Shown here: one piece after another, positions 5,803 to 7,307 of the stretch
How positions within the stretch are numbered: the stretch's first letter is position 1
How the letters are laid out: each line of letters opens with the position of its first letter
NCBI GenBank assembly: GCA_007693825.1
Contig: RECX01000184.1
Location: 1-44,970 of the forward strand
Direction: 5' to 3'
Origin: Balneolaceae bacterium
Lineage (GTDB): Bacteria > Bacteroidota > Rhodothermia > Balneolales > Natronogracilivirgulaceae
DNA: 44,970 bases
Made by a program: the position numbers and the translations under genes
Notes under the pieces: model-generated
What the model was told of the DNA's origin: nothing
What the model saw: only the letters and a program-made list of their open reading frames with translations
Databases searched by the model: none

Positions 5803-5842
5803 CGTGGATTACCGCACTCGTGGATTACCGCACTCGTGGATT
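5803..5842. repeat. 16-bp tandem repeat (cgtggattaccgcact, 2.5 copies) immediately upstream of the DoxX gene
   Basis: Copies at 5803-5818 and 5819-5834, partial at 5835-5842. Confidence 0.95.
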
Positions 5843-5981
5843 GACACATTCACCTAAGTATTTCAACAACCGCAACCTTCTGAACATTCATGGGTTGGAT
5901 GATTTTTTTCTGTTGCCTGCTTGCAGATTTGACCGTTTAGTGGATTGCTGAAAAAATAATTTGAAAAAAGTGTAAGAAAAG

Positions 5982-6095
5982 CACCTCTTTGTACTCTATA
6001 AAGAGATGGGCTTGAAGTTGTCCCGCATGGGATGTCCTCAAGTCTCAGACCTGAAAGTGGGTCGGACGTTGAATGTCGTCCGACCCTGCTTTTTA
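5982..6095 (+). ncRNA. Candidate structured RNA/leader ending in an intrinsic terminator
   Basis: ctcttt...aaagag hairpin, imperfect hairpin cttgaagttgtcccgcatgggatgtcctcaag, and gggtcggacg/cgtccgaccc 10-bp stem (6059-6068/6077-6086) followed by tgctttttatt. No convincing ORF. Confidence 0.35.
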
Positions 6096-6096
6096 T
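6059..6096 (+). terminator. Intrinsic terminator
   Basis: Perfect 10-bp stem gggtcggacg-ttgaatgt-cgtccgaccc followed by T-rich tract. Confidence 0.75.
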
Positions 6097-6263
6097 TCTG
6101 CATAATTGGTTATTTTTATACGTTGCCATGCAACCGGGCGGCGGTGACAGATCCGGGTGAAGGATCTGACGGTTTTGCGCCGGCATGTCCCTGCACCGTA
6201 AAGGCAGCGGGCGGTCCGGTATGCCGGTCCCTCCAATAATGACACATAAAAGGTCTGAACATT

Positions 6264-7307
6264 TTGAAAAAGATAACTCCAGGAATGAACGGCAGTCCGG
6301 GAAGGAGCGCTGCTTCTGGCATGTTCGTTCGCACGGTTCTGATGGTCCTGCTTGCGGCGGGACTGACAACGGCCGCAAATGCAACCGGCGACAACGGGGG
6401 CCCGGATGGATTGGCGGACCTGCTCCTTGAGCACAACCCCGCCCTGGTTGAGACCATGCCGGTGCAAGACACCACCGACGCGGATCGCGACTATTACGAA
6501 TTTGTCGAGAACTGGCACAAAAACAGGATTGAACGGCTCCACGATGATCGCGGCTGGCTGCGGCTGGCCGGTCTCTACTGGCTGGATGACGGGGAGCAGT
6601 CTTTCGGCAGCGGCCCGCACGCGCGGGTACGTTTCCCGGAAGGTTCCATCCCGGATATGGCCGGCATCTTCGAGGTCCGGGAGGATACGGTCTTCATGCG
6701 CGTGGTCGGTAATATCGATATTCGCGACGAGCGCGACCACCGGATCCGGGACGGGATCATATCCACCCCGGAGATGACACGGGAGCTCACCTACCGAACG
6801 CTGACATGGTTCGTGGTGCGGCGAGATGACCTCGTCGGGATCCGCCTTTATGATGACAACAGCCCGCATCTGCGGCATTTCGACGGGATCGAACGCTACG
6901 AGGTCGACAAGGACTGGCGGGTGGAGGCCCGGTTTGAGCCGAAAGAGCAGGGCGCAACCATGCACATTGAAAATGTGCTGGGACAGATGATCGAGTGGGA
7001 TGTGGCCGGCACGCTGACGTTTTCGGCGGAGGGGCACGAGGTGTCCATAGTGGCCCTGGGGACCGGCGACCGCCTGTTCATTCCGTTTGCGGATGCGACT
7101 TCCGGCTCGGAAACCTATCCCGGCGGACGTTTTCTCTATATCGACCGTCCGTCATCCGGCGAACCGGCCATTGTGGACTTCAATGTGTCGTATAATCCGC
7201 CGTGCGCCATCAACCCGCATACCACCTGCCCGCTCCCGCCGCCCCAGAACCGGATGCCGTTCCCGATCCGTGCCGGCGAAAAACATTACGAGATGTATGA
7301 GGAGTGA
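6264..7307 (+). CDS. DUF1684 domain-containing secreted protein
   Basis: Signal-like N-terminus; WHKNRIERLHDDRGWLRLAGLYWLDDGEQSFGS...; C-terminal NPPCAINPHTTCPLPPPQNRMPFPIRAGEKHY typical of the DUF1684 family. Confidence 0.85.
   Translation: MKKITPGMNGSPGRSAASGMFVRTVLMVLLAAGLTTAANATGDNGGPDGLADLLLEHNPALVETMPVQDTTDADRDYYEFVENWHKNRIERLHDDRGWLRLAGLYWLDDGEQSFGSGPHARVRFPEGSIPDMAGIFEVREDTVFMRVVGNIDIRDERDHRIRDGIISTPEMTRELTYRTLTWFVVRRDDLVGIRLYDDNSPHLRHFDGIERYEVDKDWRVEARFEPKEQGATMHIENVLGQMIEWDVAGTLTFSAEGHEVSIVALGTGDRLFIPFADATSGSETYPGGRFLYIDRPSSGEPAIVDFNVSYNPPCAINPHTTCPLPPPQNRMPFPIRAGEKHYEMYEE

Follow-up and report, generated by a model that had tools for sequence, protein, structure and literature searches.

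What is encoded between the divergent doxX and DUF1684 genes of a Balneolaceae bacterium? The window, i.e. the whole stretch of DNA that was analysed (44,970 nt), holds at positions 5982-6263 an intergenic region in which an earlier note had drawn five stems, and which it had read either as a stand-alone RNA of ~110 nt or as a riboswitch-like leader attenuating DUF1684. The sequences it quoted were found where it had placed them and both gene calls were right: the minus-strand gene matched DoxX (PF07681, E 9e-21) and the plus-strand gene DUF1684 (PF07920, E 5e-42). Direct repeats of gtggattaccgcactc were also observed upstream of doxX, at window positions 5805-5840.

The whole stretch (5982-6263) folded better than its shuffles (z -5.15). 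This excess was assigned to its first part, since positions 6003-6096 gave a z of -4.67 (0 of 200 shuffles as good) whereas positions 6124-6263 were shuffle-like (z +0.26; 122 of 200 shuffles as good). A single conserved unit was recovered at this end of the region, laid out on the plus strand as follows:

5971 to 5997, plus strand: RNA promoter, with a -35-like TGTAAGA (5971-5977), N14 and a -10-like TACTCT (5992-5997).
6003 to 6096, plus strand: proposed small RNA of ~94 nt, its start inferred from the -10 element and its end from the T-run.
6008 to 6045, plus strand: 5' hairpin, differing in sequence among species with its pairing maintained.
6046 to 6054, plus strand: linker CAGACCTGA, single-stranded, the same in all ten copies found; proposed target-binding seed.
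6059 to 6096, plus strand: intrinsic terminator, with a 10-bp stem (6059-6068/6077-6086) and a T-run (6090-6094).

A covariance model of the unit (R1) matched ten of the 20 family genomes, once each (E 4e-13 to 1e-26), and these ten span six genera of one Balneolales family. Outside the family the same model, run over the rest of the order (129 genomes in total) under stricter filters than those of the family search, found no copy. At the DNA level the stretch was matched in seven other genomes, all of the same family, and these matches, the closest relative excepted, stopped near the terminator. DUF1684 lay directly downstream of the RNA in every copy examined and doxX on the other side wherever the contig extended that far, while three genomes of the same genus kept DUF1684 with the RNA absent. 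Public records matching the RNA were Balneolales MAGs with 'CSSed' sample names, which we take to denote soda-lake sediment samples.

Covariation analysis and an Rfam scan had both been proposed as checks. In the former, the 5' hairpin covaried above all shuffles and slid controls, and the terminator also carried covariation. The covariation score was 0.393 vs 0.211 in shuffles (0 of 500 reaching it), 84% of cells in the model-fitted alignment were paired vs 74% (0 of 500 as high), and double changes occurred at 14 of 23 pairs (0 of 500 with as many), figures that are inflated by the relatedness of the genomes and by the fitting of the alignment to the model. When partners were slid by one column as a control, pairing fell to 47–57%. 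The arms of the 5' hairpin diverged strongly between genera, and mean energies were -16.4 kcal/mol for cognate arms vs -9.9 kcal/mol for swapped arms. Double changes were seen in 5/10 pairs of the terminator, around a loop region with a conserved GTTGA. The linker CAGACCTGA was invariant (10/10) while the hairpin arms changed together. The Rfam scan returned no match in the window at the gathering threshold; at a relaxed E-value the best sub-threshold match (E 0.88) was a plastid 3'UTR hairpin.

Two of the five stems, the 5' hairpin and the terminator, are thus real and carry covariation, and the other three were rejected. Stem 1 (ctcttt 5985-5990/aaagag 6000-6005) straddles the -10 element, which should leave its 5' arm untranscribed. 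Stems 4 and 5 (6148-6168; 6180-6227) lie 3' of the terminator in the part that folds no better than chance; their pairing is mutated away in the closest relative (L002) and has no counterpart in other relatives. The structured RNA itself survives at a smaller size (~94 rather than ~110 nt), and four features lend good support to a stand-alone short transcript ending near 6095: conservation as one unit, a promoter of its own, covariation in the hairpin and an intrinsic terminator. Based on these features, the window very probably encodes a previously undescribed regulatory RNA of ~94–95 nt upstream of DUF1684.

Across the family the promoter follows the consensus TGTAAGG-N14-TGNTCT, with the spacing of its elements fixed in all ten copies and two departures from consensus in the window's copy. 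With two mismatches allowed, the motif was found at 19–20 places in a search of ten genomes (9 forward, 10 reverse) vs 0 in reversed controls; the matches fell in nine genomes, and roughly half of these matches coincided with the RNA. The generalised pattern TGTAAGG-N14-TGNTCT gave 28 matches vs 5 controls. Over-strict patterns (TGTAAGGA-N14..17-CTCTA in the window's own genome, and an extra-A pattern) gave few or no matches, owing to the choice of pattern. Away from the RNA, motif copies and the neighbouring sigma-like gene were located as follows:

L104, L111: motif upstream of yifB/comM, in two genomes.
L116, L129, L130: motif upstream of radC, in three genomes.
L131, L136, L138: motif upstream of ssb, in three genomes.
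L127, L142-L171: comEC upstream regions, with the motif in 14 of 17 genomes.
L112, L125: motif upstream of a PrxQ-like peroxiredoxin (prxQ).
L113, L118, L128, L132, L133, L139: motif upstream of small AraC-type HTH proteins.
L126, L134: motif upstream of a one-TM membrane protein, 3' of a sigma-70 region-4 gene.
L126 1501-2074, minus strand (also L134): sigma-70 region-4-like ECF gene, candidate sigma factor of the regulon.

Upstream regions of comEC across the family carried the motif in 14/17 cases at ≤2 mismatches and in 7/17 at ≤1, against shuffle rates of 1.5% and 0.08%, respectively; these were obtained with 400-nt shuffles for real regions of 700 nt, a difference that raises the expectation about 1.75-fold. 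The comEC motif was also present in genomes without the small RNA, among them G016, from a distant genus, whose copy is exact. Typical competence regulons include comEC, comM, radC and ssb, and a promoter that precedes comEC in most genomes and the other three in some points to a regulon of this kind. In both G009 and G007 the sigma-70 region-4-like gene ends 4 nt ahead of a copy of the motif, and its product, whose Pfam match scores 20.3 bits where the curated cut-off is 25.7, is a candidate for the sigma factor of the regulon.

A second putative ncRNA with the same promoter was observed at G017:C3:399681, G012:C6:9593 and G019:C418:4341 (L114 1501-1700, L115 1501-1710 and L141 1501-1700, with the motif at 1501). 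CAACTATT-ATT and CCTTCA recur in its copies together with a long hairpin around ACAACGTTG...CAGCGTTGT, and the copies adjoin an opposite-strand gene whose end resembles lon.

A site complementary to the seed was found at the start of the adjacent gene:

6251 to 6258, plus strand: AGGTCTGA, located where DUF1684 translation starts; complement of the seed (UCAGACCU).
6264 to 7307, plus strand: DUF1684 gene (PF07920), the proposed target, with a likely TTG start.

Since no in-frame ATG lies upstream, TTG at 6264 is the most likely start codon; the distance of ~170 nt from terminator to start codon given previously was right. The core of the site, GGTCTG, was unchanged at the DUF1684 start in 8/10 RNA-bearing genomes and in one genome without the RNA (G007). 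Within these nine DUF1684 genes a single codon was used in 0/18 invariant Gly columns and 0/11 invariant Leu columns, and only 2/46 fourfold-degenerate columns were invariant. GGTCTG is therefore conserved at the nucleotide level, as invariant Gly and Leu codons elsewhere in the gene drift, and the protein segment in which it falls shows no other conservation. The seed-target duplex was better than 98–100% of shuffled targets in seven genomes and weakly supported in G012, where 7.4% of shuffles were as good; G010 and G011 have the RNA, yet their target site is degenerate and the duplex no better than shuffles. RNA and site are both absent from G003 and G005. The main reason for doubt is G007, in which the site is kept without the RNA; given this case, the degenerate sites and the weak duplex in G012, GGTCTG may serve some function independent of the RNA. 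The core seed is constant in every copy, so covariation between seed and target has nothing to act on. A conserved unpaired seed (10/10) together with a complementary target start region (8/10) is the arrangement expected of a base-pairing sRNA. Genome-wide target searches with AGGTCTGA (28 matches in the window's own genome, almost all of them within genes, vs 65 for the reversed control) and with CAGGTCTG revealed no clear further target class. The same genome has one other AGGTCTGA around position 1501 of L031, where an ammonium-transporter-like gene encodes its signal peptide, a possible second target of the RNA.

On balance, we consider it probable that the locus encodes a stand-alone, antisense-type sRNA that is co-expressed with competence genes and lowers DUF1684 translation through pairing of its seed with GGUCUG. 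An RNA of ~94 nt, composed of the 5' hairpin, the single-stranded seed and the intrinsic terminator, would be transcribed from its own TGTAAGG-N14-TGNTCT promoter, which it shares with comEC, ssb, radC and yifB/comM, genes of DNA uptake and recombination, and whose probable reader is an alternative sigma factor of the ECF type. When that factor is active, the DNA-uptake genes and the RNA would be made together. The DUF1684 mRNA, starting at a promoter of its own downstream of the RNA, would offer GGUCUG in its translation initiation region to CAGACC of the seed; this pairing would block ribosome entry and keep DUF1684 down while the competence-like regulon is on. In the window the site covers a Shine-Dalgarno-like AAAGG ahead of the TTG start, and repression of translation is thus the expected effect. 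Sequence comparison supports the discrete conserved unit, its covarying hairpin, the seed, the promoter motif in common with other genes and the complementary site; transcription of the RNA, the identity and activity of the sigma factor, pairing in the cell and the negative sign are all predictions.

The same features could be arranged differently. Adjacency of the RNA and DUF1684 on one strand, and a CAGACC-GGUCUG pairing that appears when the full region is folded as a single strand, would suit a cis-acting leader, in which the TGTAAGG transcript reads through the terminator as an attenuator into DUF1684 and the two motifs pair intramolecularly. The terminator is strong, however, with 99% of its cells paired, and a separate conserved promoter lies 3' of it:

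6090 to 6118, plus strand: putative DUF1684 promoter, with the T-run as -33 region and TATTTTTA (6111-6118) as -7, TAnnTTTG-like.

Promoters of Bacteroidota follow a -33/-7 consensus with TAnnTTTG, which the T-run and the CGCATAATTGnTTATTTTT-type block after it look like. This block is retained in G003, G005 and G007, all without the RNA, so the RNA is separate from the DUF1684 transcript, which very likely begins near 6125 rather than with the RNA as its leader. The spacer from terminator to start codon differs between genomes in both length and sequence and is conserved no further than the nearest relative, the alignments of the RNA show no conserved antiterminator alternative, and the freely diverging hairpin offers no aptamer-like core with a terminator/antiterminator switch; nor, judging from the sequence, is the element in the 5'UTR of the gene it would regulate. 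The riboswitch or attenuator proposed earlier was rejected on the separate promoter and unconserved leader, and we regard a cis-acting leader in general as improbable. We think it more improbable still that no RNA is expressed and that the locus is conserved solely as promoter and terminator DNA, for instance as an insulator, an operator or a short leaderless peptide gene. In its favour, CAGACCTG is nearly palindromic, CAG-AC-CTG forms a small inverted repeat and an AUG follows 4–12 nt past the start of the -10 CTCT in 10/10 copies; however, the 5' hairpin covaries as RNA, which neither an operator nor a peptide requires, and the ORFs opened by this AUG vary in length (3–95 codons) and in their frame with respect to the seed. 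With ORF frames and lengths unconserved, the AUG that follows the -10 (window 6003-6015) was rejected as the start of a peptide gene.

Somewhat unlikely, yet deserving more weight, is that the same stand-alone sRNA acts mainly on other mRNAs or on a protein, GGTCTG at DUF1684 being incidental or serving translation initiation. The seed is invariant although two genomes that have the RNA carry a degenerate DUF1684 site; one RNA-less genome has the site, and the L031 gene carries a further copy. Against this, GGTCTG is fixed in nine genomes in which no invariant Gly or Leu codon is fixed, and it adjoins the sRNA, the two being absent together from G003 and G005.

We retain pairing of the sRNA with DUF1684 as the preferred reading. 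More tentatively, and perhaps somewhat short of an even chance, Balneolales may possess an ECF-sigma competence regulon (TGTAAGG-N14-TGNTCT) with at least two small RNAs, of which the one in the window would silence DUF1684 in the competence state and so give the DUF1684 family a physiological context. The RNA would represent a new family with a sharp target prediction, the shared promoter would tie DNA uptake, recombination genes and RNA regulators together in Balneolales, and the uncharacterised DUF1684 family would gain its first candidate post-transcriptional regulator. To the best of our knowledge, there are no sRNA studies in the lineage of this RNA. A few searches of the open-access literature on ECF-controlled comEC, Balneolaceae transformation and DUF1684 found nothing on such a system; on that basis the RNA family, its promoter class and the link to competence genes appear new, while base-pairing sRNAs are a known kind.

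Among known systems, the RNA resembles trans-acting base-pairing sRNAs such as SgrS and GibS of Bacteroides thetaiotaomicron (PMC7366714), with structured ends, an invariant single-stranded seed, an intrinsic terminator and a complementary site in the translation initiation region. Unlike these, it has no Rfam match, its predicted target is the codirectional next-door gene and its expression is a prediction. RocR of Legionella pneumophila is an sRNA that controls competence, pairing with mRNA 5' regions and repressing DNA-uptake mRNAs with the chaperone RocC (PMC7973641, PMC9674577). The RNA in the window would likewise be tied to natural competence and pair with an mRNA 5' region, but it would itself belong to the regulon and be co-regulated with it, with DUF1684 as its predicted target, and no homology is claimed. 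Alternative sigma factors control competence through ComX in streptococci and sigma-H in Lactobacillus sakei (PMC3364868). There, as here, an alternative-sigma-type promoter is common to comEC and recombination genes; the system suggested by our data differs in its motif (TGTAAGG-N14-TGNTCT), its Balneolales host and its ECF-like sigma candidate.
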